Positions 214 to 25,239 of a stretch of 34,914 bases of DNA are shown here, piece by piece. The notes below the pieces were generated by a model. The model searched no databases and was not told the DNA's origin. It saw only the letters and a program-made list of their open reading frames with translations. How positions within the stretch are numbered: position 1 is the stretch's first letter; every line of letters begins with the position of its first letter. Location of the stretch: positions 1 through 34,914 of the forward strand of contig JACRGV010000093.1 of the NCBI GenBank assembly GCA_016212215.1, in the 5' to 3' direction. The stretch comes from Nitrospirota bacterium. GTDB lineage: Bacteria > Nitrospirota > 9FT-COMBO-42-15 > HDB-SIOI813. Made by a program: the position numbers and the translations under genes.

Positions 214-255
214 CTAACTTCTTGCCTCTGACTTCTTGCCTCTAACTTCTAACCT
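214..255. repeat. Family C heptamer array overlapping the ATPase 3' end
   Basis: On the minus strand, 7-bp units such as GAAGTTA, GAGGCAA and GAAGTCA follow each other in phase. They encode the last residues of the ATPase (EVRGKKSEARS) and its TAG stop, so the array is coding. Confidence 0.8.
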
Positions 256-2979
256 TCGCTTTACCCATTTCTCAATCTCTACTGCAATAAAAACAACTGA
301 TGACAAAACGAGTGTAAACATTAATTCAGAAAAGGTAAGCGGCTCGGTCTTGAATACACGATTCAGGATAGGCATGTAAATTGTCGCCAGTTGGAGCAGG
401 AAGCTCAGGATTACAGTAATCAGCAGGGGTTTATTAGAAAAAATGCCGCCGGAAAACAGTGACTTGTTTTCAGATTTTATTGCCATGACATGACCGAACT
501 GGGAGAGACAGAGCACAGTAAAGACCATCGTCTGCCAGTGACCGTGTCCGGTTTTGATTGCATAAGCCTGCGTAAATAGTGTAGCCCCGCCCATTAGTAA
601 ACCGACCCAAATAATATGCTGCCACATACCACCTGAGAATAGTCCCTCATCAGGCCGCCTTGGATTTCTCTTCATCACATCACCCTCTGCCGGTTCAGTA
701 GAAAGGGCAAGGCTTGGGGCGCCGTCTGTTACAAGGTTTATCCAGAGGATATGTATGGGCAGGAGCGGTATCGGAAGTCCAAGGAAAGGCGCTAAAAATA
801 TCGTCCATATCTCTGCTGAGTTGCTTGTCAGCATATATTTAAAAAACTTTCTTATATTGTCGTATATCCTTCTTCCCTCACCTACTGCTGAGACAATAGT
901 GGCAAAATTATCATCAAGGAGAATCATGTGTGCAGACTCCTTGGAAACATCCGTACCTGTTATTCCCATTGCAATACCTATGTCAGCCCTTTTTAATGCA
1001 GGTGCATCGTTCACGCCATCCCCTGTCATTGCAACAAACTCACCCTTATCCTGCAGGCCCTTAACAATCTTGAGCTTCTGTTCAGGGGCTACCCTCGCAT
1101 ATACACTAATGTCTTCTATCTTATTTTCGAATTCATCCATTGGAAGTCTTTCAAGCCTCGGACCTGTCATCACGTCTGTGTCATCGGAGATGATTCCGAT
1201 CTTCCTCCCTATAGCCCTTGCAGTTATAGGGTGATCTCCTGTTATCATTACAGGTTTAATTCCTGCGGATTTGCATATTACAACAGCATCCTTTGCCTCA
1301 ACCCGAGGCGGGTCCATAATACCTGCAAATGCGAGAATGGTGAGATTACATTCCATACTGTCAGGCGTTATGTCTTGAGGAAGCGCATCCCATTCCCTTA
1401 TGCCGATGGCAAGCACCCTCAGCCCGTCAGCGGCCATCCTTTCACTTACCCGTATCAACTCTTCTTTATCAATATCCTTTAGGCCTGAAGACGTCAGGAT
1501 ATTCTTTGCCTTATCAATAATGACCTCTACCCCGCCTTTGGTAAAGGAAACAAAGCCATGAGATGACCCCATCCGCACCCTGCCCCTCCCACATTTATTG
1601 TCGGGGAGGGAAATTTCCTCTCCCTCAGGGAGAGGATTAAGGTGAGGGTGGGTTATCCTGTGAACCGTCGTCATGCACTTCCTGTCCGAATCAAATGGAA
1701 TCTCTGCTGTGCGTGGATAATATTTTTGAAGCTCAGTCTTTTTAAATCCTGCATTCTCTGCAGCGGAAAAAAGTGCTGTCTCTGTCGGGTCACCTGTAGT
1801 CTTCCCATTACTATCTACGGCCGCATCATTACTTAATGCCATCGCTGTCAATAGAAGATGGAGGGGCCCACCTTCCCCCTGCCCCCCTCCCGTCAAGGGA
1901 GGGGGATTTTTTGAATTTGTAAATTCCGCACTGGATAATACTTCCCCGTCTACATAAATCTCTTCAACCGACATCCTGTTCATTGTTAGGGTACCTGTCT
2001 TATCAGTACAGATATATGTCACTGAACCGAGTGCCTCTACAGCAGGAAGTTTTCTTATTAGTACGTTCTGTTTAACCAGCTTCATGGCGCCTAATGAAAG
2101 TGAAATTGTCACTACTGCCGGAAGCGCCTCGGGAATGGCCGCTACTGCAAGGCTTATTGATGTAAGAAACATCAGGATAGCAGATTCGCCTCTCAGGATA
2201 CCGACTAAAAATACTATTGCACATATAGCAATTGCTGTAATACCCAGAAGCTGCCCGACCTTCTCAAGTCGTTTTTGTAAAGGTGTTTTTACTTCCTCTT
2301 CCTCCTGAAGCATAGTTGCGATTCGCCCAAGCTCTGTCTCCATTCCGGTAGAGACAACAACACCTTTTGCACGGCCGTAACTAACCGTAGTCCCCTTGTA
2401 AGCCATGTTTCTTCTGTCTCCGAGCGGGATCATATCTTCATGTAGTTCTGATGTAGTCTTTTCAACCGGATGGGATTCTCCTGTTAATGCAGCCTCCTCT
2501 GTCTTTAGGTGGAAACTCTCCATAATCCTGATGTCAGCCGGAACTATCATACCGGCCTCTAACATTACTATGTCGCCTTTCACAATATCAGGGGAGGGAA
2601 TGGGTGTTTGCATACCCTCCCTTATAACTACTGCAGTCGGAGAGGCCATGAGCTTCAATGCCTCCATCGCCTTTTCTGCCCTGTATTCCTGAATAAAACC
2701 TATTATGGCATTGATGATAACTATCACCATGATGGCAATAGTGTCCGCTGTTTCTCCGATAATTCCTGAGACAACAGCCGCAGCAATCAGGATAATGATC
2801 ATGAAGTTTTTAAACTGATCAATAAACATCCCGACAGGCCCCTTCTTTTCCGCAGCCTTGAGTTCATTGGGACCGTTTTCAATAAGACGCCTCTTTGCCT
2901 CTTCCTGAGAAAGCCCTTCAGGATTAGAATCTAAAACCCGTAACACCTCTTCAATTGATTGCCGGTAAAATTTTTTCAT
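214..2979 (-). CDS. Cation-transporting P-type ATPase, P2A (Ca2+) type, with repeat-derived insertions
   Basis: An inner-membrane P-type ATPase of 921 residues that probably exports Ca2+. All family landmarks are visible: TGES (166-169) in the actuator domain, PEALP (283-287) in M4, the phosphorylated Asp in DKTGT (326-330), TGDHPITA and GDGVNDAP in the P domain. M5 carries SNSAE and M6 carries NLVTDG, matching the Asn/Glu and Asn/Asp ligands of both SERCA calcium sites, so Ca2+ is a better guess than Na+/K+; this remains inference. Two stretches in the nucleotide-binding domain, about 357-373 and 442-471, are translated family A repeats (Pro/Gly-rich, e.g. NPLPEGEE) and do not look like ATPase sequence. 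They lie between otherwise recognisable blocks (RKCMTTVHR before, FVSFTKGGVEVI after). The C-terminal dozen residues come from a heptamer repeat. The reading frame is intact. It is the last gene of the cluster. Confidence 0.93.
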   Translation of the reverse strand: MKKFYRQSIEEVLRVLDSNPEGLSQEEAKRRLIENGPNELKAAEKKGPVGMFIDQFKNFMIIILIAAAVVSGIIGETADTIAIMVIVIINAIIGFIQEYRAEKAMEALKLMASPTAVVIREGMQTPIPSPDIVKGDIVMLEAGMIVPADIRIMESFHLKTEEAALTGESHPVEKTTSELHEDMIPLGDRRNMAYKGTTVSYGRAKGVVVSTGMETELGRIATMLQEEEEVKTPLQKRLEKVGQLLGITAIAICAIVFLVGILRGESAILMFLTSISLAVAAIPEALPAVVTISLSLGAMKLVKQNVLIRKLPAVEALGSVTYICTDKTGTLTMNRMSVEEIYVDGEVLSSAEFTNSKNPPPLTGGGQGEGGPLHLLLTAMALSNDAAVDSNGKTTGDPTETALFSAAENAGFKKTELQKYYPRTAEIPFDSDRKCMTTVHRITHPHLNPLPEGEEISLPDNKCGRGRVRMGSSHGFVSFTKGGVEVIIDKAKNILTSSGLKDIDKEELIRVSERMAADGLRVLAIGIREWDALPQDITPDSMECNLTILAFAGIMDPPRVEAKDAVVICKSAGIKPVMITGDHPITARAIGRKIGIISDDTDVMTGPRLERLPMDEFENKIEDISVYARVAPEQKLKIVKGLQDKGEFVAMTGDGVNDAPALKRADIGIAMGITGTDVSKESAHMILLDDNFATIVSAVGEGRRIYDNIRKFFKYMLTSNSAEIWTIFLAPFLGLPIPLLPIHILWINLVTDGAPSLALSTEPAEGDVMKRNPRRPDEGLFSGGMWQHIIWVGLLMGGATLFTQAYAIKTGHGHWQTMVFTVLCLSQFGHVMAIKSENKSLFSGGIFSNKPLLITVILSFLLQLATIYMPILNRVFKTEPLTFSELMFTLVLSSVVFIAVEIEKWVKRRLEVRGKKSEARS
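1564..1655. repeat. Family A repeat (full unit) inside the ATPase gene
   Basis: Outer arms ACCCCATCCGCACCC and GGTGAGGGTGGGT enclose two inner hairpins, one of them with an altered loop. The right inner hairpin CCTCTCCCTCAGGGAGAGG matches the intergenic copies. It is read in frame as roughly residues 442-471 of the ATPase. Confidence 0.85.
1866..1908. repeat. Family A2 repeat inside the ATPase gene
   Basis: It carries the hairpin CCCCCTCCCGTCAAGGGAGG and its flank, the same subtype as the intergenic copies near 8138, 26956 and 28151. It is translated as about residues 357-373 of the ATPase (PPPLTGGGQGEGGP). Confidence 0.85.
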
Positions 2980-5111: not shown

Positions 5112-5137
5112 AATATCTCCTCAACTGGTCACTCGAA

Positions 5138-5240
5138 AATCCCTTCCGGCGGGGTAAGAAAACCCCGCCTATCCATTTCTATGAGGATAGGCGGGACATT
5201 CTTGTCCCGCTGATTTTCATGGCCCTTTGTGAAACCCAGT
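5138..5240. repeat. Family B repeat, full copy
   Basis: It consists of AATCCCTTCCGGCGGGG, an AACCCCGCC pairing arm, ATAGGCGGGACATTCTTGTC and the tail GATTTTCATGGCCCTTTGTG. GGCGGGGT/AACCCCGCC and CGGGACATTCTTGTCCCG can each form a hairpin. By eye it is about 90% identical to the copy inside valS at 11390-11507. Confidence 0.9.
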
Positions 5241-10021: not shown

Positions 10022-10164
10022 TATTCATCCGAAAATGACCCCATCCCCACCCTAACCCTCCCCTTGAAGGGGAGGGAATAAACTAAGCACCCTCTCCCTC
10101 AGGGAGAGGGTCCGGGTGAGGGTGGGGTTTTCATTGCCATTTGTGAACCACCAGCTCATGACAG
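10022..10164. repeat. Full-length family A composite repeat between nadC and birA
   Basis: Outer arms ACCCCATCCCCACCC and GGGTGAGGGTGGGGTTTTC enclose two inner hairpins, CCCTCCCCTTGAAGGGGAGG and CCCTCTCCCTCAGGGAGAGG. The tail CATTGCCATTTGTGAACC and GCTCATGACAG follows. The same architecture recurs at 34779-34914. The tail overlaps the 3' end of nadC. Confidence 0.9.
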
Positions 10165-11022: not shown

Positions 11023-13782
11023 CTATGAACCAAGCCATGACAGGTTAGCCTCAATTCTCAATTTCTGCTCCGTCAGCTCCTGATATTTTCCTTTTTCCTT
11101 CTGAACTATCTCTTCAGGGGCCTTTTCAATAAAACTCTTATTAGACAACTTACTGTTAATCCTTTCAATCTCATTATTCATATCACTGAGACGTTTACTC
11201 AACTGCCTCTTCTCTTTATCTATATCAATTACACCTTCAAGCGGCAGGTAAATCTCACCTCCTGAGAACACAGAGATAGCAGACTTCTCAGGACGCTTAA
11301 TATCTTTACCAATCACAACATCCTTGATCCATGCAAGCCTCTTCAGATATATAAAATTGTCTTCGAGCAAATTGTTTAGGAATTCATTAGAAAATCCCTC
11401 CGGCGGGGTTGGAAAACCCCGCCTATCCGTGCCTAAATTGAGGATAGGCGGGACATTCTTGTCCCGCTGATTTTCATGCCCCTTTGTAATCGCCCCGCTC
11501 ATGAGAGATTTATCAGCAATCTTGAGATGGACATCCACAATCTGAGACGGCGGGATATTCAACTCTGACCTCATACTCCTTACAGTCTTTATAACCTCCA
11601 TAACTGACTCCATATCCTTCTCTGCAGAATCATTCAGAAGCGGCTCTTCAACTACAGGGTATCCGGAGACCATCAAAGATGGACCCTTATTATTAAAATC
11701 GCCGTTCTGATATATCTCCTCAGTAATAAAAGGCATAAAGGGATGAAGCAGTCTCAGTACATTATCCAGCGTGTTTAACAAAACCGCAGAAGTGTTCTCC
11801 TTCCTCTGTCCTCCTTCAGCAATTTGTAGTTTTGCAAATTCCAGATACCAGTCGCAGAACTCATGCCAGAAGAATTTATAGATTGTACCTGATGCCAGAT
11901 CAAACCGGTACTCACCCAGCATCCCTGAAATCTCTGCTATTGTATTATTCAAGCGGCTCAGTATCCATTTATCAGGGAGTGTCAGATAATCTTTATCAAG
12001 ACGAACCGCACCTTCTGAATTCATCATTATAAATCTTGACGCATTCCATATCTTGTTTGCAAAATTCCTGTTCCCCTCAATGCGTTCTTCGGAGAGCTTA
12101 ATGTCACGGCCCGGTGAAGACATCGAGGCCAGTGTAAATCTTAGTGCATCCGTACCATACTTCCCCATTATAATCAGGGGGTCAATAACATTCCCCTTTG
12201 ATTTGCTCATCTTCTGTCCCTCAGCATCCCTGACGAGTGCATGGATACATACCTCTTTAAAAGGGACATCCCCCATAAATTTAATCCCCATCATCATCAT
12301 ACGGGCTACCCAGAAAAAGAGTATGTCAAATCCGGTAACAAGGACAGACGTCGGATAAAACCGTTTTAGATCCTCTGTCTTCTCAGGCCAGCCTAATGTC
12401 GAGAAGGGCCATAAGGCAGAAGAGAACCATGTATCAAGCACGTCCTCATCCTGTAAAATATCAGGACTGCCGCATTGTTTGCAGGCTGAAGGATTATCCC
12501 TGTCAACTGTAACTCCCCCGCAGGCTTTACAATGCCATGCCGGTATCTGATGTCCCCACCATATCTGCCTTGATATACACCAGTCTTTGATATTATTCAT
12601 CCATTCAAAATATGTATTCTCCCAGCCTTTCGGGATAATTGTAACCTTGCCCTCTTCAACTGCCCGGATAGCCGGTTCAGCAAGCGGCTTTGTCTTAACA
12701 AACCACTGTTTTGACACATTGGGTTCTATTATAGTCTTGCACCTGTAACAATGACCCACTGCATGAAGGTGATTATCCTCTTTTACAAGCTCTCCCCTGT
12801 CGGTAAGGTCTTTGAGAATCGCCTTCCTGCACTCAAATCTGTCCATTCCTTTATACTGCCCGGCATCGTCGTTCATCTTTCCGTCATCAGTCATTACCTT
12901 TATCTTAGGAAGTCCGTGCCTGTTGCCGACCTCAAAGTCATTCGGGTCATGGGCAGGGGTAATCTTTAATGCTCCGGTACCGAATTCCATTTCAACTACA
13001 GTATCCGCGATAACAGGTATCACCCTTCCAACAACAGGAATAATTACATCCTTACCTATAAAACTGCTGTATCTTGTATCAGCCGGATTTACAGCAACCG
13101 CAGTATCTCCAAGTATCGTCTCAGGACGTGTTGTAGCAACTGTCAGCGAGCCGGATCCGTCAGCAAGTTGATAAACAAGGTGATATAACTTCCCTTGAAT
13201 ATTCTCATACTCAACCTCAAGGTCCGACAATGCGGTCATACACCTGGGGCACCAATTAATAATGTAATTTCCCTGATATATAAGCCCATCTTCATAGAGC
13301 CGTACAAAGACCTCCCGCACAGCCCTTGACATCCCATCATCCATTGTAAAACGTTCCCTGCTCCAATCACATGAACCGCCAAGGCGTTTAAGCTGATAGA
13401 TAATCGTACGGCCGTAATATTCCCGCCACTCCCAGACCTTTTTAACAAACCGTTCTCTGCCGTACTCCTTCCTGCTGTTCCCCTCTGAGGCTATATGCCG
13501 CTCTACAACATTCTGAGTTGCAATACCCGCATGGTCGGTCCCGGGCACCCAAAGAGTGTTATAACCTGACATCCTCTTCCAGCGGACAATAATGTCCTGT
13601 AAAGTAGTGTTAAGGGCATGACCCATGTGCAAAGAACCGGTGATATTAGGGGGTGGAATTACTATAGAAAAACTATTTGGATTGTCCTGCTCTGCTGCCT
13701 TAAAAAAACCATTGTCCTCCCAGAATTTGTACCACTTTTCTTCTACCTCTTCAGGGCTGTAAACCTTACTAAGTTCATTCAT
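11023..13782 (-). CDS. valS: Valine--tRNA ligase ValS, carrying an in-frame family B insertion
   Basis: It charges tRNA-Val. The 919 residues include the HIGH-type motif in NITGSLHMGHALN, the CP1 editing domain with TTRPETILGDTAVAV, a CxxC zinc pair (CKACGG, CKQCGS), KMSKSKGN, the anticodon-binding domain and the C-terminal coiled-coil arm (about 845-915). Residues about 760-796 are translated from a family B repeat (…GHENQRDKN…GFPTPPEGF…) and separate DVHLKIADKSLMS from EFLNNLLEDNF, sequence that would otherwise be adjacent. The frame is open throughout, so the enzyme is probably functional with the extra loop. The start overlaps the response-regulator stop in an ATGA arrangement, and the stop abuts nadC. 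Confidence 0.97.
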   Translation of the reverse strand: MNELSKVYSPEEVEEKWYKFWEDNGFFKAAEQDNPNSFSIVIPPPNITGSLHMGHALNTTLQDIIVRWKRMSGYNTLWVPGTDHAGIATQNVVERHIASEGNSRKEYGRERFVKKVWEWREYYGRTIIYQLKRLGGSCDWSRERFTMDDGMSRAVREVFVRLYEDGLIYQGNYIINWCPRCMTALSDLEVEYENIQGKLYHLVYQLADGSGSLTVATTRPETILGDTAVAVNPADTRYSSFIGKDVIIPVVGRVIPVIADTVVEMEFGTGALKITPAHDPNDFEVGNRHGLPKIKVMTDDGKMNDDAGQYKGMDRFECRKAILKDLTDRGELVKEDNHLHAVGHCYRCKTIIEPNVSKQWFVKTKPLAEPAIRAVEEGKVTIIPKGWENTYFEWMNNIKDWCISRQIWWGHQIPAWHCKACGGVTVDRDNPSACKQCGSPDILQDEDVLDTWFSSALWPFSTLGWPEKTEDLKRFYPTSVLVTGFDILFFWVARMMMMGIKFMGDVPFKEVCIHALVRDAEGQKMSKSKGNVIDPLIIMGKYGTDALRFTLASMSSPGRDIKLSEERIEGNRNFANKIWNASRFIMMNSEGAVRLDKDYLTLPDKWILSRLNNTIAEISGMLGEYRFDLASGTIYKFFWHEFCDWYLEFAKLQIAEGGQRKENTSAVLLNTLDNVLRLLHPFMPFITEEIYQNGDFNNKGPSLMVSGYPVVEEPLLNDSAEKDMESVMEVIKTVRSMRSELNIPPSQIVDVHLKIADKSLMSGAITKGHENQRDKNVPPILNLGTDRRGFPTPPEGFSNEFLNNLLEDNFIYLKRLAWIKDVVIGKDIKRPEKSAISVFSGGEIYLPLEGVIDIDKEKRQLSKRLSDMNNEIERINSKLSNKSFIEKAPEEIVQKEKGKYQELTEQKLRIEANLSWLGS
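11390..11507. repeat. Family B repeat inside valS
   Basis: It is the same element as at 5138-5240: AAAATCCCTCCGGCGGGG, AAAACCCCGCCTATCC, ATAGGCGGGACATTCTTGTC, then GATTTTCATGCCCCTTTGT and CGCTCATGA. It lies in frame within valS and contributes roughly 37 codons. Confidence 0.92.
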
Positions 13783-14744
13783 CCACTCTCACCCTTGAGC
13801 CTTTCTATCTCCTTTTTGACCTCTTCTTCTGCAATCCTGGGGACTACATCCATTACTATCTTTTCAATAAATTCTCTTGAGATTTTGCTTAACATTTTTT
13901 CAATTATTTCGTCGGGGAATAACCCCATCCCCACCCTATCCCTCCCCTTGAAGGGGAGGGGACTTTCACTCTCCATCTGCTCACCTGTTGTTTCTTCTTC
14001 CTGTGGGAGGGGGATGGACATATCACCTTCTGCTCTTTCCGTCGTTATAAACTCCCTCCCCTTCAAGGGGAGGGCTGGGGTGGGGATGGGGTTACTGTCA
14101 AGTGTTGTACTTACATACCCCGTCTGCTCCAATTCCTTTTCAATCTCCTCCATTGCAACTTCATTGATTTCCGCAGGAATCTGCTCTTCTATCTCCTCCA
14201 CTCCGGCTATCCCTGCAAGATTATCATTTAAGACCGCTGACTCATTTTCCAAAATAATATCTTTCTTATTTACATCCTTCTTTGACTCCTCAGAAACATT
14301 CCAGCCTAGTAGTTCTTCAATACCAATTGGGCCCATTGGTTCAACCTGTTCATAGGACGGCATTGAAGATGCTTCCATACAATCCTTTATGGTATTTACC
14401 ATCTTAGTAGGGTCTATGGGCTTGTATATAATCCCATAACCCGGTGGTATATCTTCTCCGGTTTTTAATAATGCGTCCATGTTCTCTATCACGTACAGGA
14501 TAGGGACGTATTTAAATTCTGGAAATTCCGGTCTATTCCTGATAGCCCTGCTGACCTCTATTCCATTTACCCCTGAGAGACCAGGGTCAAGGAGTATCAC
14601 ATCAGGCATAAACCTTGTGGCAACATCAAGTGCAACCGTTCCATCCGATACCGTGGAAATATCAAAACCTTCCAGTTTCAGAAAATAAGAAATAACCTGG
14701 AGAACAGTACTATCAGACTCTGCAATAAGAACCTTTTTACCCAT
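13779..14744 (-). CDS. Response regulator: REC domain, repeat-bearing linker, C-terminal helical segment
   Basis: A 321-residue cytoplasmic signalling protein. Residues 1-125 form a receiver domain: KKVLIAESDS (acidic pocket), VILLDPGLSG with the phosphoacceptor Asp, VPILYVIE, and the conserved Lys in IIYKPIDP. No DNA-binding domain follows. Residues about 130-275 form an acidic, low-complexity linker holding two translated family A repeats (NPIPTPALPLKGRE at about 217-230; SPLPFKGRDRVGMG at about 261-275). The C-terminal 45 residues (DEIIEKMLSKISREFIEKIV..., ending EEVKKEIERLKGESG) are strongly helical and resemble tails of deltaproteobacterial receiver proteins, though I cannot name the family. 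It is the first gene after the promoter at 14816-14844, and its stop overlaps valS by ATGA. Partner kinase unknown. Confidence 0.85.
   Translation of the reverse strand: MGKKVLIAESDSTVLQVISYFLKLEGFDISTVSDGTVALDVATRFMPDVILLDPGLSGVNGIEVSRAIRNRPEFPEFKYVPILYVIENMDALLKTGEDIPPGYGIIYKPIDPTKMVNTIKDCMEASSMPSYEQVEPMGPIGIEELLGWNVSEESKKDVNKKDIILENESAVLNDNLAGIAGVEEIEEQIPAEINEVAMEEIEKELEQTGYVSTTLDSNPIPTPALPLKGREFITTERAEGDMSIPLPQEEETTGEQMESESPLPFKGRDRVGMGLFPDEIIEKMLSKISREFIEKIVMDVVPRIAEEEVKKEIERLKGESG
13921..13962. repeat. Family A half-unit in the response-regulator linker, forward
   Basis: AACCCCATCCCCACCC followed by the hairpin CCCTCCCCTTGAAGGGGAGG. It is read on the minus strand as SPLPFKGRDRVGMGL. 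Confidence 0.9.
14053..14093. repeat. Family A half-unit in the response-regulator linker, inverted
   Basis: CCCTCCCCTTCAAGGGGAGG followed by GGGTGGGGATGGGGTT, the reverse complement of the copy at 13921-13962. It is read as NPIPTPALPLKGRE. The two copies form a ~40-bp inverted repeat with about 90 bp between them. Confidence 0.9.
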
Positions 14745-14898: not shown

Positions 14899-15375
14899 AT
14901 ATTGAGGTGAGATAAGCTGGAACCCTCTCCGCAACATAATATAGACTAGTGGGCTTATAAGGCGGTTGCAGCGCTTCAATCCTTGTTTTTATGGAAGCCT
15001 CTCCGCAACTGCGATTATTTCAGGTGCGAAGATTGCCACAGGAGCAGGTTTCAATCCTTGTTTTTATGGAAGCCTCTCCGCAACACCTTGCGCAGAAGGT
15101 ACAAGGGCAGTTACCGAATGCGTTTCAATCCTTGTTTTTATGGAAGCCTCTCCGCAAGCGCCTGCCGGTGACCATTCGGAAATATTTCCTGAGTTTCAAT
15201 CCTTGTTTTTATGGAAGCCTCTCCGCAACATTGTGTTTGACATGGAGAAAACTATAATCAATATGCGTTTCAATCCTTGTTTTTATGGAAGCCTCTCCGC
15301 AAAAATCTGTTTAATCGTCATGCTTTTGACACCCTTCGGTTTCAATCCTTGTTTTTATGGAAGCCTCTCCGCAAC
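14899..15375 (-). CRISPR. CRISPR array, six 37-bp repeats plus one degenerate terminal repeat, type I-B
   Basis: On the + strand each repeat runs from GTTTCAATCC to CTCCGCAAC. Repeats lie at 14973-15009, 15048-15084, 15122-15158, 15193-15229, 15267-15303 and 15339-15375; spacers between them are 38, 37, 34, 37 and 35 bp. A seventh copy, 14899-14935, keeps only about its last 19 bases and is followed by a 37-bp spacer, marking the old end. The last + strand base varies (C, G or A), so 36 bp are strictly conserved. Read on the minus strand the repeat ends ATTGAAAC, the usual crRNA 5' handle of type I-B, so transcription follows the cas genes and the leader is at the 15376 side. The repeat at 14973 has one change, T to C, at its second base. 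Confidence 0.97.
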
Positions 15376-15548
15376 TCAATTTTGTCTCACTCCCTTTATT
15401 TATGCGGTCTCCTGACAATTTTACTCTTCCTATTTCCCCCCTTTCCAAGCCCTCTGATATAAAATAAATTGCCATATTTTCACCCCCTTTACATCGTCTC
15501 AGCCTCGAAAAATCTAAAGTATTCCATGCAGTTACGATTCTGATCTAT
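15376..15548 (-). promoter_or_regulatory. Probable CRISPR leader
   Basis: This is the 173-bp stretch between the cas4 stop and the first (newest) repeat on the minus strand. The degenerate repeat at the other end places the leader here. I see no convincing promoter hexamers. It does contain a well-placed GGGGGTG and an ATG at 15475 that opens a 54-codon frame into the first repeat (see findings). Confidence 0.6.
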
Positions 15549-16142
15549 TCACACACAAATATTTTTATAACAACAGTCAACGCACCTGTTATTCCATCTT
15601 GTCCTTTTAGGATAATAACCTTTCAAAATAACAGCTAATATCTCCTCAACTAAAGCCATAGCATACTCAAAATCCTCAGGCTTGTAAACCACTTCTTTTA
15701 ATGTGATACCATCCCGCACATAGCAGAGATAACCCCTGTAAACAGGCTTCTTATATGTTTCCCTGATCAGCATTGCATAAAGAACAGACTGAACTTTATG
15801 GGTTTCAAACAGGAAATCCCTGAACTCGGTATATTTATAATCAAGAGTCGCCATACTGCCGTCTGAGAGGGTCAGCACCTCATCAATCACCCCTCTTACC
15901 CGAATAACCGGTGATGCCACATAAACGGAAAGTTCCTTATCCACACATCCGATCTTTTTCCTCAGGTATTCCTTATTCTCCTTTTCACGCCGTTCATGCA
16001 GTTCCCGCCCTTTCAAAACTTTATATCTAAGTTCCTCGTGCTGGGGTATTTTCAGGCAATTCATAAAGTATGTAAACCTTGGGCAGAAGAGATGTTCGAT
16101 TACCTCAGAGGGAGTAATCATGACTGTAGATTCTGTGTCCAT
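15549..16142 (-). CDS. cas4: CRISPR-associated exonuclease Cas4
   Basis: A RecB-family nuclease with an iron-sulfur cluster that trims and PAM-selects prespacers for Cas1-Cas2. The 197 residues from MDTESTVMITPSEVIEHLFCPRF contain the first cluster Cys (LFCPRF), the nuclease core with TLDYKY and the Q-x3-Y motif (KVQSVLYAML), and the C-terminal Cys group CVDCCYKNIC. I start at ATG 16142, 10 bp after the cas2 stop and preceded by GAGGTG at good spacing. A longer frame to 16211 would overlap cas2 by 59 bp and adds a non-family N-terminus. It is the last cas gene before the leader; Cas4 after Cas2 is less usual for I-B loci. Confidence 0.93.
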   Translation of the reverse strand: MDTESTVMITPSEVIEHLFCPRFTYFMNCLKIPQHEELRYKVLKGRELHERREKENKEYLRKKIGCVDKELSVYVASPVIRVRGVIDEVLTLSDGSMATLDYKYTEFRDFLFETHKVQSVLYAMLIRETYKKPVYRGYLCYVRDGITLKEVVYKPEDFEYAMALVEEILAVILKGYYPKRTRWNNRCVDCCYKNICV

Positions 16143-16152
16143 CACCTGCACC

Positions 16153-17434
<1,282 letters not shown>

Positions 17435-17452
17435 ATAGGTTCCTTTGCCATT

Positions 17453-17482
17453 GACTTCCCGATGCCATAAGGTAATCGGGGC
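17453..17482. repeat. Family D hairpin and direct-repeat copy 1, downstream of ORF6N gene 1
   Basis: It begins GACTTCCCGATGCC (17453-17466), which recurs exactly at 18059-18072. CCCGAT (17458-17463) and ATCGGG (17475-17480) can pair. It sits immediately after the stop codon of the ORF6N gene. Confidence 0.7.
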
Positions 17483-17989
17483 TTAAAATCCTATCCTCTT
17501 TTTTTTCTTTTGAGGAGGCTCAATCAATTGCTTTATTGCCTCAAAGACAACCTTGAGCTGATAATCATATTTCTTCTCCATCTCCTCAATTTTTATCCTC
17601 AGGTCCTTATGAGTCGCCAGCATTTCTCTGATTTTTGTAAAAGTCCTCATTATCAGGATGTTAACTTCTATCGCCCGCTCACTATTCAGAACACTTGATA
17701 GCATAGCTACTCCGTTTTCTGTAAAGGCATACGGTAAATACTTGATATTATGTCCTCTCTTCAAGATCACAAATTGTGATCTTGAAAGTTCAGCGGCTTC
17801 TTCCCTGTTCAGTTGAAACATAAAGTCATCGGGAAACCTGTTTATATTTCTCCTAATAGCCTGGTTCAATGTCCTTGTTTCAACCTCATAAAGAGCAGCC
17901 AAGTCTTTATCCATCATTACCTTTTTACCTCTTATGATAAGTATCTTACTCTCGATCAGTTGTTGTGGTACGACTTCTGTATTCTGCAT
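17483..17989 (-). CDS. ORF6N-domain (KilA-N/Bro-related) DNA-binding protein, copy 1, inside cas operon
   Basis: A 168-residue protein of the ORF6N family, a DNA-binding domain known from phage and bacterial proteins. Visible blocks are LIESKILIIRGKKVMMDKDLA, LYEVETRTLNQAIRRNINRFP, DFMFQL, then a variable segment with SQFVI, PYAFTENGVAMLSSVL, and a C-terminal helical/coiled-coil part (THKDLRIKIEEMEKKYDYQ) ending in a Lys-rich tail KKKKRIGF. I start at ATG 17989, which has GGAG at good spacing and aligns with the start of copy 2; six extra codons up to 18007 have no RBS. It lies 26 bp after cas6 and 48 bp before cas1. By eye it is about 77% identical to copy 2 before the variable segment and about 84% after it. 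Function in CRISPR is unknown; regulator or hitch-hiking gene are both possible. Confidence 0.88.
   Translation of the reverse strand: MQNTEVVPQQLIESKILIIRGKKVMMDKDLAALYEVETRTLNQAIRRNINRFPDDFMFQLNREEAAELSRSQFVILKRGHNIKYLPYAFTENGVAMLSSVLNSERAIEVNILIMRTFTKIREMLATHKDLRIKIEEMEKKYDYQLKVVFEAIKQLIEPPQKKKKRIGF
17760..17786. repeat. Perfect 27-bp palindrome inside ORF6N gene 1
   Basis: The left arm TTCAAGATCACAA (17760-17772) and right arm TTGTGATCTTGAA (17774-17786) are exact reverse complements around a single A. It lies in the variable central segment, over the codons for SQFVI. See the paired palindrome at 22019-22045. Confidence 0.95.
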
Positions 17990-18015
17990 ACTAATCTCCG
18001 TTTTCATAAGTTTAT

Positions 18016-18696
18016 TTATTCCTCAATGCTCTTCACCGTCCCAAATCCCCTCGATACCGACTTCCCGATGCCCCAGTAGTCGGGGATTTCGAAGTTGACG
18101 GAGAAGGCGCCAAGGAAGCCGAGCATGGGGGTGCCTTTGAGAGATGTCTGGACTTCTTTGATATTGATGATGTTGGCCTTAATCGGCCCCGGAACTGTAT
18201 AACTCAGGCTCTTTGACATGGAGATGATATTGCCGATGAGAATCTTCTCCAGTAGTTCCTTCCTCTTGTCCCAGCTTCCAAGTCTTTGATATTTATCATA
18301 GTTAGTTTCATTCAGGGCAAGCCAGGGGGTTAGGAAGGAGTAGGGGATTTGTTCTGATGAGATAGAGAAATAAGCTGTATAGCTTTCTAATCCTTTACTC
18401 AGTATCTCCTCCCACTTACCATTTAAGTTTATTAATCCCAATTGATCAAAGGTCTTTTTAATTACTTCAATACCCTCTTGAAATCCTAAAAGTAAACATA
18501 TACCGTTTATTACTTTATATTGAATACAAGGATAACGATATATAAAACTACCATCTGCGTTATGATGATGGACTGACGGGTTATCCCAAAACATATTGCC
18601 AAGATAACCCCTTATTTTTTCAGCGTCGGACTTCTTCAAAACAGAATCTAAAGTAAGCCAGAGCCTTAAAATATTTATCTCCACATTAGCTACCAT
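18016..18696 (-). CDS. cas6: CRISPR repeat endoribonuclease Cas6
   Basis: It cuts the CRISPR transcript within each repeat to make crRNAs with an 8-nt 5' handle. It has 226 residues. The family mark is the C-terminal Gly-rich loop, here YWGIGKSVSRGFGTVKSIEE; the body carries GTPMLGFLGAFSVNFEIPDY. Assignment rests on this loop, the size and its position after cas3 in a I-B operon. No single catalytic His is obvious to me. The ATG at 18696 overlaps the end of cas3 by 7 bp. DNA coding for the Gly-rich loop is GC-richer than its surroundings and includes the 14-bp direct repeat shared with 17453-17466. Confidence 0.88.
   Translation of the reverse strand: MVANVEINILRLWLTLDSVLKKSDAEKIRGYLGNMFWDNPSVHHHNADGSFIYRYPCIQYKVINGICLLLGFQEGIEVIKKTFDQLGLINLNGKWEEILSKGLESYTAYFSISSEQIPYSFLTPWLALNETNYDKYQRLGSWDKRKELLEKILIGNIISMSKSLSYTVPGPIKANIINIKEVQTSLKGTPMLGFLGAFSVNFEIPDYWGIGKSVSRGFGTVKSIEE
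18059..18087. repeat. Family D hairpin and direct-repeat copy 2, within cas6
   Basis: GACTTCCCGATGCC (18059-18072) matches 17453-17466 exactly, and the following bases up to TCGGGG are also similar. It encodes the PDYWGIGKS part of Cas6. The two copies bracket ORF6N gene 1. Confidence 0.7.
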
Positions 18697-20999
18697 ATAG
18701 CCACAGACCTATTGTCTTTTGTTTTAAAACCAGTCACTTGATCATAATAGTCTTCTAAAACAGACTGTTTTACATAACCGAGTTCCCCCCATAATGGCGG
18801 CATATTTTCAATATGTGCAGGAATGGATATAACGAACCGGTAAAAGTCAGCTTTAATAGAATCAAACTGTTTTTTCCTTTCAAACAACTCAGTTACAGCT
18901 TTTAAGTCAAGGTACTGCTGCCAGACTTCCTTTGCATCCTCATCCAGTTCTATAAAGACATCCCTTTTGGGATAGTCTTCTTCAATAAGTTTAAAATCTG
19001 ATATTGATGTTTTGTCGTCCTCACTGTCGTATCTGAGCTTTGTTATTGATTCTAAAAGCCGCTTAGAATCGTCTTGTGATTTTTTCCTTTCTGTTTCTCT
19101 GTAATATTCGCTGTTTAACTGTAGAAGCTCCCGCTCTTTTATTTCTATCCGGCTGCTTAATACTTTTCGTGTTATATCTATCAGGACAGAGTCATAAACA
19201 TATAAATAATAGGGATGTCCTCGGTCATCCTTTAGCGATACAACATAAACTTCTCCTTTTTGCCTCCCGTTTCTATTGCATCTGCCTGCTGCCTGATTTA
19301 TGGAGTCCAGAGGAGCTATATCCCGAACAACAACATCAAAGTCTATGTCAACCCCGGCCTCCACAATCTGCGTTGAGACAGCCACTTTATAGTCTCCCTT
19401 TTTAATCTTTTCTATTCTTTCAAGACGCTCATTAGGCGTTATATGTGTTGATAGATAAGTGCTTGATATCCCGATATCCTTAACCATGTTATGGAAGTCT
19501 CTGGCCGCAGTGATCGTATTGAATATAAATAGATAGCTCCTTCCATCAATCAAATTAAAATGTTCTGACAATTCTTTTATAGTGATGTCCCTTTCCAGCA
19601 TAGGCTTCATTGAAACCCTATCCAGCGCATTAAAATAGAAATCTTTGTCCGCAAGCCCTTTAATCTCCCCTTTCCCAAATATCAACGGTTCTGTAGCTGT
19701 TACAAGAATTATGTACGTATTAAGCATTTCAGAAAGTTGTGTAAGAATATTTTTTAAAAGCAGCCAGTATTTGATAGGAATGGATTGAATCTCATCAAGG
19801 ATAATTATGGAATTGGCAAGTCTGTGAAATTTCCTGATGCTTTTGTTCCGGTTTGAAATCAATGAATGGAACAACTGAACAAAGGTGGTGATGATTATTT
19901 CTGAGTTCCACCCCTCAATGAGTATTTTGGCCTCATCAGGTTCAAATTCATTGTCACCTTTTTTGTAGAAAATCTCTGAAAGATGATGGTGTTTTAATAG
20001 GATATTGCTGTAAGATTCAATGCCGTTTGCCTTTATCACAGACTCGAAAACAAGGCTGTTCTGGTCAATGATGCTTAAAAACGGGAGGGCATATATAATA
20101 CGGTGAGTCAGGCCTGCCTTTTCCCGTAGCTTCAAGGCAAAAGACAATGATGTCAGAGTCTTGCCAAGCCCTGTCGGAAGGTTAATGGAATAAACCTTCT
20201 CATCAGTATTTATGCGGCTATGTGCTACCTCCAGATAAGCCTTTTCTCTTAAATAATTAACCGGGGATTCATCAAAGGTACTCTGTGCCTTGTAGTTATC
20301 TACAAGACTGCCGGATATAAATTCTCTTCGCTCAAATAATGAAATATCTCTTATGACAACATCGCTTTTGTCTGCATCGAGTAAGAGTGAGTAAAGCAAG
20401 TTCAAAGTTATAAAATCAACTGTGCCATTGCTTAGTCCTCGTATGTACTTTTTTATTGATTTTAATTCTTTAGTAAGATTATTAATCCAGTTTTCGATAA
20501 TATTTTTATTCAAAAGTATTGGAAGGCCTGCATCGTGCAGTATTTCAGAAAGTATAGAAAATTTATTATCGTCTATATTTTTAAGCTGATTCTGCAAAGT
20601 TTTTATATCATCATCGGCATACCATGTTACCTCATCTGATATATCTATAAGATTTCCATGATGTCTTCTTACAGTAATAAAGGCAAAAAAGGGGTGAAGT
20701 TTATCATCTGTGATTTGTGTTGTGAGATAATAGGCGCTCACTGCTGAGAAAAGGCTGTGTTTTGTCAGGTTGGTTTTGAGTCTTGCCTTCTCATTTTCTT
20801 CAGCAACCAAATATTCCTGGAAATAGCCTGTAGCCTTACCAATATCGTGTGAGAGGGCAATTATCTTGCACACCCTGGATAATTGCTCTTGTATGGTCAG
20901 TGGTTTTTCAGCAAGAAATAGCTCCGAGAGTTTAGCAACTCCAATGAGATGGTCTTCCAATAACCTTTCTGGATGGGAATAAAGATTAGAAGAAGGCAA
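18690..20999 (-). CDS. cas3: CRISPR-associated helicase/nuclease Cas3 (HD + DExD/H)
   Basis: The effector recruited by Cascade, unwinding and degrading target DNA. The N-terminal HD nuclease domain (about 1-240) has HPERLLEDHL, ALSHDIGKATGYF and a VRRHHGNL motif. The superfamily 2 helicase follows: LPTGLGKTLTSLS (Walker A), IIILDEIQSIP (motif II, DEIQ in place of DEAH), LVTATEP (motif III), and QAAGRCNRNGR (motif VI). From the start I prefer, a TTG at 20999 with GGAG six bases upstream, it has 769 residues. A TTG at 21017 is possible but has no ribosome site. It overlaps cas5 by 14 bp. HD and helicase are fused, as is common in I-B. Confidence 0.95.
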   Translation of the reverse strand: MPSSNLYSHPERLLEDHLIGVAKLSELFLAEKPLTIQEQLSRVCKIIALSHDIGKATGYFQEYLVAEENEKARLKTNLTKHSLFSAVSAYYLTTQITDDKLHPFFAFITVRRHHGNLIDISDEVTWYADDDIKTLQNQLKNIDDNKFSILSEILHDAGLPILLNKNIIENWINNLTKELKSIKKYIRGLSNGTVDFITLNLLYSLLLDADKSDVVIRDISLFERREFISGSLVDNYKAQSTFDESPVNYLREKAYLEVAHSRINTDEKVYSINLPTGLGKTLTSLSFALKLREKAGLTHRIIYALPFLSIIDQNSLVFESVIKANGIESYSNILLKHHHLSEIFYKKGDNEFEPDEAKILIEGWNSEIIITTFVQLFHSLISNRNKSIRKFHRLANSIIILDEIQSIPIKYWLLLKNILTQLSEMLNTYIILVTATEPLIFGKGEIKGLADKDFYFNALDRVSMKPMLERDITIKELSEHFNLIDGRSYLFIFNTITAARDFHNMVKDIGISSTYLSTHITPNERLERIEKIKKGDYKVAVSTQIVEAGVDIDFDVVVRDIAPLDSINQAAGRCNRNGRQKGEVYVVSLKDDRGHPYYLYVYDSVLIDITRKVLSSRIEIKERELLQLNSEYYRETERKKSQDDSKRLLESITKLRYDSEDDKTSISDFKLIEEDYPKRDVFIELDEDAKEVWQQYLDLKAVTELFERKKQFDSIKADFYRFVISIPAHIENMPPLWGELGYVKQSVLEDYYDQVTGFKTKDNRSVAIW

Positions 21000-21714
21000 T
21001 GTTTTCTCCGTTTTCAAGTTTGCAATATGTATTTACAGATGCCTTTATAGTCTTCCCATCAGGCTCAAAGATGACATCATCGTATCTTTCAACAACTCTA
21101 TTCTGATTCATAAAAAGAGGAATCTTCTCTTTGAAATATTTTTTGCCTGTTTCTATCTCAAGGCTATTTGGAATCAGGTTGTCCATAGTTATAGGGGTAG
21201 TTAATTCTGCTACCTCTCCGCTGCTGTTCTCTTCGCAATCATAAAGTCCAATATATTTGAAATCAGATAGAAGCTCGCTTAACCCAAGAGAGACTGTATA
21301 AACTGACTTGTGCTCAACGATATTCCTATAGAGATTATCAAGAATATCATTATCTTTGTGGCATACATGAATTCTGTAACGGGGGTCTTTAAGAAATTCT
21401 GTTCTGATCTGTGTACGTGGTGCAAGATTTTTATCACTCATCGGAATTTTTAAATTTGCCCCTTTCGTTTCTAATAGATTCAGTCCCATCCTTACTTTTT
21501 TCACAGGTCTTAATATCTGTAAAGCAATCCGGCACTTATTACTTCCAAACACACTTAAATATTCATTTGTATTCTTATCAGTTCCAATCATAGCCCCTAA
21601 TATTCCGGCAATTGTCGGCGGGGGTGGGAATGAAAAAGTGAGTGGTGAGGTAGTGGTATAGAACTTTCGGAAATGACCCAAATCTCCCCATATATCAAAA
21701 ACCAGAACTCTCAT
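20986..21714 (-). CDS. cas5: Cascade subunit Cas5 (Cas5h/I-B type)
   Basis: It caps the crRNA 5' handle in the Cascade complex. It has 242 residues. The N-terminal RAMP fold signature is clear: MRVLVFDIWGDLGHFRKFYT, then SPLTFSFPPPPTIAGILGAMIG, the typical Cas5 P.PT..G..GA motif, and a long basic hairpin region (PVKKVRMGLNLLETKG). Placement between cas7 and cas3 fits the I-B operon. It is separated from cas7 by ORF6N gene 2; the gap to that gene is only 6 bp. Confidence 0.93.
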   Translation of the reverse strand: MRVLVFDIWGDLGHFRKFYTTTSPLTFSFPPPPTIAGILGAMIGTDKNTNEYLSVFGSNKCRIALQILRPVKKVRMGLNLLETKGANLKIPMSDKNLAPRTQIRTEFLKDPRYRIHVCHKDNDILDNLYRNIVEHKSVYTVSLGLSELLSDFKYIGLYDCEENSSGEVAELTTPITMDNLIPNSLEIETGKKYFKEKIPLFMNQNRVVERYDDVIFEPDGKTIKASVNTYCKLENGENIAFF

Positions 21715-21720
21715 TTCATC

Positions 21721-22245
21721 TCAATCCTTTTTCCCATGTAGAAAACCAATTCGTGTCTTAGGTTTCAGTGAAGGCTCTATTAGTTGCTTTATCGCATCAA
21801 ATACGATCTTAAACTGATAATCATACTTCTGTTCCATTTCCTCAATCTTCTGCCTTAACTCTTTGTGGGTTGCCAGCATTTCCCTGATTTTTGTAAATGT
21901 TCTCATTATCTGTATGTTGACCGTTATCGCCCGTTCACTCTTTAATACGCTTGATAGCATAGCAACGCCGTTTTCAGTGAAGGCATAGGGTCTTTTTCTT
22001 AAACCCATTTTTTCTTTGTTGGATATCACAATTTGTGATATCCAATTATCCATCTCTTCTTTTGTTAACTGAAACATAAAGTCTTCAGGAAAACGCTTAC
22101 CATTTCTTCTAACAGCTTGATTCAATGTTCTTGTTTCCACGTTATAGAGTATTGCCAGATCTCTATCCAGCATAACCTTCTTGCCTCTGATGAAAAGTAT
22201 TTTATTCTCTATCAGTTGCTGTGGGATAACCTCAGTATCCGGCAT
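21721..22245 (-). CDS. ORF6N-domain DNA-binding protein, copy 2, inside cas operon
   Basis: A 174-residue paralog of the protein at 17483-17989. It shares LIENKILFIRGKKVM, ETRTLNQAVRRN, RFPEDFMFQL, PYAFTENGVAMLSSVL, RTFTKIREMLATHKEL and the KIEEMEQKYDYQ coiled-coil part, and ends RIGFLHGKKD. Between FMFQL and PYAF about 21 residues differ almost completely from copy 1, apart from SQ.VI. The ATG at 22245 has AGGAG at good spacing, and GGAGATTA precedes the ATG in both paralogs. It is 14 bp after cas7 and 6 bp before cas5, so it is tightly built into the operon. The role is unknown; a DNA-binding regulator acting on the palindromes described here is my inference. Confidence 0.88.
   Translation of the reverse strand: MPDTEVIPQQLIENKILFIRGKKVMLDRDLAILYNVETRTLNQAVRRNGKRFPEDFMFQLTKEEMDNWISQIVISNKEKMGLRKRPYAFTENGVAMLSSVLKSERAITVNIQIMRTFTKIREMLATHKELRQKIEEMEQKYDYQFKIVFDAIKQLIEPSLKPKTRIGFLHGKKD
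22019..22045. repeat. Perfect 27-bp palindrome inside ORF6N gene 2
   Basis: The left arm TTGGATATCACAA (22019-22031) and right arm TTGTGATATCCAA (22033-22045) are exact reverse complements around a single T. The core ATCACAA-N-TTGTGAT equals that in gene 1; the outer six bases differ but remain complementary. Confidence 0.95.
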
Positions 22246-22259
22246 CGTAATCTCCTAAT

Positions 22260-23189
22260 TTAGAAAGGAATGTCTTCAACTGTTATACCGTTAAAGGCGT
22301 CTCTGATAGCAATATCCTGAGCATCTTTTACAAAAATAACTCTTTCATCTGCTCTGAGTTTTACTTTTTCAATCTTGTCCTTATGTATCTCTATTGCCTT
22401 TACAAGTTCTGTGATGTCAATTTTAAGCTCTGAAATATCTCGGATAGATTCAGGGTTATCAATTGCATCATTATTTTTTAACTTCAAAGAAATACGCTTA
22501 TCTAATTCTCCTATGTAGAAATTTCCTTCTTTATAAATAACCTGAATAAGAAGTCTCGGCATCTGCCCGAATTTAGAGCCTGAGATTAGGTTTTTTGTGC
22601 CATTCCATATACCTTCAAGCATTAGGGAAAGATCATCTTCTGTTAATTGAAGACGTTGCTGGCGGGCAGCATTTTCATTGACAATACCGTAAAAAGCAAT
22701 CAGTGAATACGGCAGAATATACCTCTCAGTAAAAGTACCCTGATTTTTGTCAGCTTTTGAGGGCATTATAGTTGTCCCTTTTACGTAAGTTATATCTACC
22801 TTATGTAAGGACCTTCCATACTTAAATTGAATAGGTCCGGTCAACACCATTGTTTTGCCTTCTACGGCTGTTGTGGCTCCAAATAATCTAATATCAATAC
22901 ACTTTTCCAGAACTTCATCAGGGTTATTGCTAAAATCGTTAAGCCTGTCCTCCTTTGTTTTTAATTTGCCGTTCCCATCCTTTATTCCAAGGACAAAAAT
23001 ATCTTTTTTCTGATACTCATAAAGATAATCCCGAATAGTTCTTTTCAGCCGTACATCTGTAACAATATTTATTCCTGTCTCCTCATCTATTCTGGGTTTG
23101 TTTTCATCCACAGGGTCTCCGTTAGGGTTGGCGTCCTTAATGTCATACAGAAACAAAATCTCAGAACGATTCTTAACTAATTCTGACAT
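22260..23189 (-). CDS. cas7: Cascade backbone subunit Cas7 (Csh2 family)
   Basis: It polymerises along the crRNA spacer to form the Cascade backbone. The 309-residue protein begins with the Csh2 hallmark EILFLYDIKDANPNGDP, then TDVRLKRTIRDYLYEY, FGATTAVEG, GPIQFKYGRSLHKVDI, and the mid-protein block YILPYSLIAFYGIVNENAA (quoted in one run of 19). The ATG at 23189 has GGAGGG upstream. Its start lies 17 bp after the end of cas8b. The Csh2 type supports subtype I-B. Confidence 0.95.
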   Translation of the reverse strand: MSELVKNRSEILFLYDIKDANPNGDPVDENKPRIDEETGINIVTDVRLKRTIRDYLYEYQKKDIFVLGIKDGNGKLKTKEDRLNDFSNNPDEVLEKCIDIRLFGATTAVEGKTMVLTGPIQFKYGRSLHKVDITYVKGTTIMPSKADKNQGTFTERYILPYSLIAFYGIVNENAARQQRLQLTEDDLSLMLEGIWNGTKNLISGSKFGQMPRLLIQVIYKEGNFYIGELDKRISLKLKNNDAIDNPESIRDISELKIDITELVKAIEIHKDKIEKVKLRADERVIFVKDAQDIAIRDAFNGITVEDIPF

Positions 23190-23206
23190 GGGTTATCCCT
23201 CCTTAT

Positions 23207-24928
23207 TTAGTTTTTTGGATATACAATATCTGCAATGCTGTCAACCAAATTCATTCCGCAGGCAAAATAGAAATTTATTTCATCAACCGGCATCTTCCAG
23301 CCATCACCAGCATCAAGGAGATATTTTGCAGTCTCAGAAGCAGTCAGCCTTTTCCCTTTATCAAAAGCATCATACTCTTCAAGTTTATTCTGAACTTCAG
23401 GCAAAAGCGCCTTTATGTCTTTCTCATCCATTTTTAAGCCCTTCAGTTTCTTCATAAAAGGCCTCGCATTTCTTTCAATCCATTGTTTATTCAGGAGCAT
23501 CTGAGTTAGCGCTCCCATTAGAAAAACTCCCTTCTTTGCAGAGCTTCCAAAGGATTTACCATATTGAGCAAATACACTACTGAATAGACCTTCTTCCATA
23601 TTTCTCACCTCCTCAAAATTAATCAATCCAAGATATTCAAAAAAGACTGTATTCATTAAGGCATCTTTTATCCTGAAACTAAAATAGCCCTCATTAATAA
23701 ATTCTTTTCTAACAACTACCATATAAAACCTCAAAAGAAACGAAAAATCAAGCCTACTGCCTTTAAAAACGCTGTCAACTATTTCAAGGAAGTATTTGTT
23801 TAGGTCGCTTTGTTTTTTGTTATCATCTGATCTCGAGAAAAATTCTCTTATAGTACCGAAAGTAAACCCCTTGTCAGAACCGTTATTAAAAATGTGGTCG
23901 ACATTATCTTTAGATTCAAAGATTTTTCTTATCCTTGAGGGGAAAACATCTTCTATTAATAATAGAATCCTTTCAGCACTCTGTTGCCTCTGCAAAAATA
24001 AAAAGTTAAGGGTGAGGACATCTTTTTCTTCAGAAAGATATTCAAGAATTTCATCATCATCATTTGTAATTCTATTTTTTATCCGCTCTTTAAGAGCAAC
24101 TGTTTTTGTAGTATCAGATAAAATATCAAGGACTTCTTCCAGCAACGACTGTCCACCTGTTAAGAGACGAGGAATAAGCAAGTAATTCAAGCCATAGAAT
24201 TTAAATTTAAGATTGCCTTCAAGGAATTTTCTTCCGTTTTCCAAGAAGGTTCTGCATTCCATGCATACAGGAAAGTTTTTCCATGCATGTGGTTCTTGAA
24301 ATCCGCCTGTAATGAATCCCGGCTTGTCAATAGTGTAAAACCTGAATACGTCTGTCTTTCCTGATACTTCTTTGTCAGGCATACTGCAAATAGAGCATAC
24401 TCCTGAGTTAGCAGACCTCTTTCTCTTTTTTTCATCAAAAGTTACAAGACATTTCTTGAAAACCTCATATTCACCCAGATATTTTCCGTCTAATTTTACA
24501 GTTAGGAATTTAGACTCCTTCTTTGGAATATCTTTAGCCTTTTGTGCAATATCTGTAATAATTGCTTCCCTTTTTACAGTAAGAACTTCCAAAGCCTTAT
24601 TTATTAGATACCTGCTGCTATCATCTTTCAGTGTATTTTCATTTATATCATTGCACTGATTTAACCATCCTTCTATTTTTTTATATGTTTTGACTGGCTC
24701 GGTGAGTGGACAGAAAGGGGAGGGTACATTACCTTTTGAAGCTCCTTGTTTGAATAAATACCAATTCTTTTTATGCCTTTCAGAGTCAAAGTCTTCAATA
24801 TCTATAGCACTATATGATGACTTATCAGTATCAAGATTTATTGATAAAATCTTCCCACGTATCTGCTCTTCCACTTCACATGCCTTTTGGATAACCAGCT
24901 CACCAATATCTCTTATCGCAGAAAGCAT
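23207..24928 (-). CDS. cas8b: Cascade large subunit Cas8b (Csh1/TM1802 family)
   Basis: The large Cascade subunit, which recognises the PAM and helps open target DNA. The 573 residues contain a Cys pair CSICSMPD and a second pair CMECRTFLENG about 50 residues later, the probable zinc site of the TM1802/Csh1 family. The rest is poorly conserved, as is usual. I start at ATG 24928 (MLSAIRDIGELVIQK), with GGGGGGAAT upstream. A GTG at 24997 would add 23 residues that do not look like family sequence. It is the first gene of the cas operon, with a possible promoter at 25079-25107. The family identification rests on the Cys pairs, the size and the adjacent Csh2-type cas7. Confidence 0.88.
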   Translation of the reverse strand: MLSAIRDIGELVIQKACEVEEQIRGKILSINLDTDKSSYSAIDIEDFDSERHKKNWYLFKQGASKGNVPSPFCPLTEPVKTYKKIEGWLNQCNDINENTLKDDSSRYLINKALEVLTVKREAIITDIAQKAKDIPKKESKFLTVKLDGKYLGEYEVFKKCLVTFDEKKRKRSANSGVCSICSMPDKEVSGKTDVFRFYTIDKPGFITGGFQEPHAWKNFPVCMECRTFLENGRKFLEGNLKFKFYGLNYLLIPRLLTGGQSLLEEVLDILSDTTKTVALKERIKNRITNDDDEILEYLSEEKDVLTLNFLFLQRQQSAERILLLIEDVFPSRIRKIFESKDNVDHIFNNGSDKGFTFGTIREFFSRSDDNKKQSDLNKYFLEIVDSVFKGSRLDFSFLLRFYMVVVRKEFINEGYFSFRIKDALMNTVFFEYLGLINFEEVRNMEEGLFSSVFAQYGKSFGSSAKKGVFLMGALTQMLLNKQWIERNARPFMKKLKGLKMDEKDIKALLPEVQNKLEEYDAFDKGKRLTASETAKYLLDAGDGWKMPVDEINFYFACGMNLVDSIADIVYPKN

Positions 24929-25239
24929 CCTTAATTCCCCCCTATGCCCATGAAACTTCGGCCTATTTCCATAGAGACCCCCAAAGAATCCTCTCACAGC
25001 CCTGCCATCGCTTAATTACAACGCACTCTCACAGGTTATCAATCTTTAGGTCTGATGCCAAAACTCTCTTGCAATTGACTTATACTCCATTTAAAAGCCT
25101 TCTGCAATTTTAAAGAGCGTAGGTTTTTCATAGACGATATCAGGTGCCAGCATACATAAAGTATTTCAGTAAATCAAGAAGGGGGGAATAATGATCTGAT
25201 GTAGTAAACTCACGTAAAGGATGGCAGAAGAAGTAATTA
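24929..25239. other. Gene-free region upstream of the cas operon
   Basis: About 310 bp without a supported gene between the 138-aa protein gene and cas8b. Unlike most gaps in this window it holds no family A, B or C repeat. The only candidate signal is the promoter at 25079-25107. Confidence 0.6.
25079..25107 (-). promoter_or_regulatory. Possible promoter of the cas operon
   Basis: On the minus strand TATAAG (25084-25079, 5/6 match to the -10) lies 17 bp from TTGCAG (25107-25102, 3/6 match to the -35). The start would be about 145 bases before cas8b. The -35 is weak, so this is only a candidate. Confidence 0.3.

Follow-up and report, generated by a model that had tools for sequence, protein, structure and literature searches.

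In-frame hairpin repeats in a Ca2+-ATPase of a free-living Nitrospirota bacterium are probably selfish elements tolerated as extra protein loops

How can a gene for a calcium pump contain two copies of repeats that otherwise lie mostly between genes, and still be read from end to end? The question is raised by a stretch of 34,914 nucleotides (contig JACRGV010000093.1 of assembly GCA_016212215.1; "the window" below means this whole stretch). It comes from a draft metagenome assembly of 2.99 Mb in 164 contigs, and the host is a free-living, groundwater-type bacterium whose nearest named relatives belong to the Nitrospirota. The best-known examples of in-frame coding palindromes come from the intracellular Rickettsiales. 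The answer we favor, with a probability of roughly 0.85 on the basis of sequence comparison, is that selfish hairpin elements are tolerated here as extra protein loops and work like Rickettsia palindromic elements (RPEs).

The gene and its repeat-derived parts are the following:

214..2979, minus strand: P-type Ca2+-transporting ATPase gene, which hosts both repeats (open ORF and domain matches)
1866..1908, minus strand: loop 1 insert, a single-hairpin repeat (D8), read as NPPPLTGGGQGEGG, residues ~358-372
1564..1655, minus strand: loop 2 insert, a full-length two-hairpin element of the short-spacer (GAAATTTCC) subfamily, read as THPHLNPLPEGEEISLPDNKCGRGRVRMG, residues ~442-472
214..262, minus strand: C terminus of the ATPase (..RRLEVRGKKSEARS), formed by a third repeat, the heptamer-type D1, with copies at 197-248 and 211-262

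The ORF encodes 921 amino acids, is open throughout and contains the full expected set of domains (Cation_ATPase_N, E1-E2_ATPase, Hydrolase, Cation_ATPase and Cation_ATPase_C). The nearest solved structures are those of Listeria LMCA1 (6zhf/9euq). Both inserts are in frame and free of stop codons, and their DNA belongs to the dispersed window repeats D4, D8 and D10 and to the inverted pair I13. The initial annotation had read them as stop-free matches to intergenic repeats within an otherwise normal ATPase; the repeat list and the ORF confirm its coordinates and frame, and both flanks are continuous with orthologues. It had also called them two repeats of one family (family A). This is not quite exact: the loop 2 insert is a full-length two-hairpin element, and the loop 1 insert is a single-hairpin relative of the PPLTGGG type. 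As RNA, the loop 2 insert folds with z = -4.1; the loop 1 insert forms a hairpin with z = -0.9, which by itself is not significant. Orthologue alignments stop near residue 909, within the C-terminal end of the protein.

Both inserts match repeats with many intergenic copies in the window. The element itself is best described from full-length intergenic copies, among them these two in the window:

10024..10131, plus strand: intergenic full-length reference copy of the long-spacer form, contains stop codons
34774..34881, plus strand: another full-length copy between genes, with 91% identity over 141 bp

The consensus of aligned full-length intergenic copies (AACCCCATCCCCACCCTAACCCTCCCCTTGAAGGGGAGGGAATAAACTAAGCACCCTCTCCCTCAGGGAGAGGGTCCGGGTGAGGGTGGGGTT) shows two hairpins flanked by inverted ends, with terminal inverted repeats AACCCCATCCCCACCC ... 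GGGTGAGGGTGGGGTT. The core measures 86-94 bp, to which short ends are added, and at least 40 full-length copies share about 90% identity or more. Allowing up to two mismatches, 270 places of the genome (2.99 Mb) match the hairpin core CCTCTCCCTNNGGGAGAGG, and none matches its reversed control. With at most one mismatch there are 251 places here versus 1-10 in each of nine other genomes of the family, which suggests that the expansion was recent and local to this genome. The spacer is mostly 20-24 bp in full-length intergenic copies and mostly 13 bp (AGGAAATTTCCCT) in genic copies (genic versus intergenic, Fisher p = 5e-4). No open frame whatsoever exists in 22 of 37 full-length intergenic copies.

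Under the reading we favor, short (~85-105 bp), GC-rich, two-hairpin selfish elements would have multiplied in this genome, mostly between genes. Genic copies would survive only if the frame stays open and the added residues land in a permissive loop or linker, and the resulting proteins would carry an added flexible loop rich in proline and glycine.

The distribution of repeats over genes was determined in a sample of 0.93 Mb that was partly picked for containing repeats. Genes were called with our own dicodon model (86% coding) and do not represent a curated annotation; a gene finder using codon usage only was dropped, as it recovered 43% coding. The sample has 232 repeat places, with 107 intergenic, 50 across a gene end and 48 internal to a gene, in frame and with coding flanks on both sides; the remainder lie at gene ends or are dubious. 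Only 48 of 232 are internal although about 86% of the sample is coding, and genic copies are therefore strongly depleted. Within the window, a response-regulator gene (13782-14744, minus) carries two repeats:

13917..14014, minus strand: in-frame repeat, C-terminal to the receiver domain
14045..14099, minus strand: second in-frame repeat, in the opposite orientation to the first

A whole-genome search for the short-spacer form yielded 36 copies: 22 internal to genes, 2 at gene ends and 12 intergenic. All 22 internal copies are in sense orientation and in a single frame, reading PHPHLNPLPEGEEISLPFKGRVRVGMG or a variant. Their host genes are unrelated to each other and include MutS, phosphoglycerate mutase (iPGM), CheA, a CCG-domain protein, a class I aminotransferase, a UvrD-like helicase, a PD-(D/E)XK nuclease, MetRS and D-Ala-D-Ala ligase, among others. 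The repeat-bearing MetRS gene is the only full-length MetRS copy found in the genome, and the repeat-bearing D-Ala-D-Ala ligase gene is the genome's best match to that enzyme. The iPGM and MutS inserts (genome G000) are absent from orthologues in relatives. The element core has three stop-free frames, and its second forward frame is also stop-free; the bias has p = 3e-11 against three stop-free core frames and p = 5e-7 against two. Such strictness exceeds the prediction from stop-avoidance alone, and it counts against the explanation we favor. The bias could instead come from the mode of insertion, that is, from a preference for certain targets or for one orientation, linked either to transcription or to a short motif, and not from selection after insertion. 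Insertion into one frame despite the second stop-free forward frame is what such a preference would produce; yet single-hairpin relatives use several frames (the main frame of H2 accounts for 16 of 27) and no insertion motif was established. We regard this origin of the bias as unlikely. It bears only on the cause of the bias, and the remainder of the tolerated-loop explanation could stand beside it; under that explanation, we infer, the overall pattern is due to selection against broken or misfolded copies rather than to targeting.

The short-spacer subfamily could also be a gene-adapted lineage, which has lost the stops in its spacer, encodes a tolerated, frame-preserving peptide and spreads mainly into coding sequence, in one frame. 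We offer this tentatively and would sooner bet against it. Testing codon positions for selection on the peptide gave a confounded result, since genic and intergenic copies do not share one subfamily consensus.

We compared the ATPase loops across 104 orthologues. Loop 2 has 7-10 amino acids in most repeat-poor orthologues and 37 in the window ATPase; LMCA1 aligns with about 5 amino acids at this place. Loop 1 is natively variable, with an orthologue median of ~20 amino acids, and its 30 amino acids in the window ATPase amount to a net gain of about 10. The initial annotation had proposed that the repeats entered surface loops of the nucleotide-binding (N) domain. In the alignment the insert residues are indeed absent from the orthologues, and no repeat-poor orthologue carries the same residues. 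An AlphaFold2 model of the ATPase, built from 62 aligned sequences (mean pLDDT 85.6), agrees with the proposed location: residues ~355-371 and ~442-475 drop to a pLDDT of ~50 and are mostly coil between ordered N-domain elements, with the loop 2 insert sitting between strands 435-441 and 476-483. This low-confidence coil, together with the short LMCA1 turn at the same place, suggests that the inserts are solvent-exposed. The full element would lie in a beta-hairpin turn of the nucleotide-binding domain and the half element in a variable loop close by, where both are presumably translated and harmless.

Inserts of at least 8 amino acids recur at only two sites in 105 aligned ATPases, and these sites are loop 1 and loop 2. 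In other Nitrospirota the same two loops hold other peptides: PPFLKGG/SPFIKGG hairpins, VKSEELKVKSE..LLTLNSQLST heptamers and PGPRTPTPGPF. In one separate clade (L142) the filling is a relative of the same element. Because the nearest relatives of the window ATPase, on a tree built without the loops, lack its inserts, the two loops look as if they were occupied independently in separate clades. In the sequences compared, loop content follows the repeat load of the genome: CCCCCTTTNNNAAAGGGGG hairpins number 262 in G002, 173 in G005 and 56 in G001, and the ATPase loops of all three carry CCCCCTTTNNNAAAGGGGG. We propose that the two loops would be permissive across the phylum and filled independently by whatever repeats are common in each genome. 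MutS behaves likewise: in six genomes (G002, G005, G007, G008, G011 and G020) it contains PPF/PFTKGG-type inserts, four of the six at one common site; the G005/G008 pair is identical over the compared region and of no use for dN/dS. As a separate observation, the frame changes near residue 392 in an ATPase from the same genus (L021, genome G001) and splits it in two, which points to either a sequencing error or a pseudogene.

One could argue that the peptide from the insert has acquired a function, such as pump regulation or contact with another protein, and that selection maintains it. Repeated reuse of the same loops would fit this idea, as would the single frame of the short-spacer subfamily. 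But different repeat families occupy the same loop, the inserts are low-confidence coil in the AlphaFold2 model, and two orthologues with ~90% identical bodies (L146 and L173) have unrelated loop sequences (body pN 0.03, loop pN 0.45). With loop content turning over between orthologues this similar, the comparison does not point to a function of the peptide, and we consider recruitment improbable. Alternatively, the repeat could be cut out of the mRNA, or the ribosome could pass over it as it does with translational bypassing elements, leaving a protein without the insert. The strong RNA structure of the loop 2 insert (z = -4.1) is in line with such a process, but frame and stops would then be irrelevant, yet all 22 genic short-spacer copies keep one open frame, in a family in which 22 of 37 intergenic full-length copies have none; this makes removal or bypassing very improbable. 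Least probable of all is an assembly artefact in which repeats fused unrelated contig pieces within the ATPase gene, as might happen in a draft assembly rich in repeats, since the gene is continuous with its orthologues on both flanks and the same always-in-frame pattern occurs in dozens of genes and in many independent assemblies from other species.

The element can be set beside several known systems. RPEs and the Wolbachia palindromic elements (WPEs) are palindromes of about 100-150 bp that form several families and sit in frame within genes unrelated to each other, where they occupy solvent-exposed sites (PMC3767692; PMC10969869). Possible insertion hot spots common to different palindromic families have been reported in Rickettsia and Wolbachia (PMC3767692). 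The likeness to RPEs that the initial annotation had pointed out holds for behavior, as our element is also a dispersed palindrome found in frame in many unrelated, intact genes, in loops. It does not extend to the hosts, which are obligate intracellular alphaproteobacteria (Rickettsiales) for RPEs and WPEs and a free-living phylum, the Nitrospirota, here. The elements also differ in being GC-rich and two-hairpin, with one subfamily that keeps to a single frame, and in that different repeat classes occupy the same loops in different species.

REP/BIME/REPIN sequences consist of two short hairpins in inverted arrangement and are found mainly outside genes, sometimes within them; REPs in Xanthomonas recB have been reported at about the same site (PMC3733652). 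Our element shares this architecture and this distribution. Unlike REPs, its consensus has neither a GTAG nor a CGTC tag at the ends, and a profile search of the draft genome for Y1_Tnp (PF01797), which covers only Y1 transposases, found no match while control genomes were positive; on this result a RAYT/Y1 transposase was set aside as mobiliser. Bacterial MITEs (ERIC/RU, QMITE) are small, have inverted ends and are at times found within ORFs or disrupting them, in some cases in frame (PMC2759123, PMC5896051). Terminal inverted repeats, small size and some in-frame copies within ORFs are common to both, but no parent insertion sequence was found here, nor a cognate transposase in the search for Y1 transposases, and one subfamily has a high in-frame internal share (22 of 36). 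The iPGM insertion shows no clear target-site duplication; the direct ATGAAA on either side of it could itself belong to the element.

Neither the peptide NPLPEGEG nor in-frame palindromes in Nitrospira turned up in searches of the literature. The principle of shared hot spots is already known, but the host group, the sequences, the scale and the one-frame subfamily appear to be new within the literature searched. Here, in-frame coding palindromes occur in a free-living phylum, and in genes as central as MetRS. The refilling of the same protein loops by different repeats across species is a natural replicated experiment on insertion-tolerant sites. The system bears on how selfish DNA turns into protein and on whether elements adapt to intragenic life. 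If a gene-adapted lineage does exist, then it and the parallel loop filling together would mean that proteins in a free-living phylum steadily gain new loops from small repeats.

Several further repeats deserve mention. The ValRS gene of the window (11023-13782, minus) contains the repeat pair D13/D15 at 11391-11487, translated in frame (..ITKGHENQRDKNVPPILNLGTDRRGFPTPPEG..); its other copy, at 5137-5230, is up to 98% identical, and a FliK-like protein (L279) contains a peptide similar to that of the ValRS repeat. Nested inserts occur in L281 (1-6209), L284 and L292, where the repeat peptide SCLPPQKRGEGFGRNLIA lies within an LPEGE element, also in frame. At four loci (L076, L082, L095 and L102) repeats end exactly at a start codon (..GWGYFKM..), and the downstream gene may owe its ATG or leader to the element. 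The window also has a CRISPR array (14918-15384) that adjoins a cas gene cluster (about 15549-25000). Inside or beside this cluster lie two copies of a small gene (17483-18007 and 21721-22245; direct repeats D7 and D9), which are 75-80% identical.
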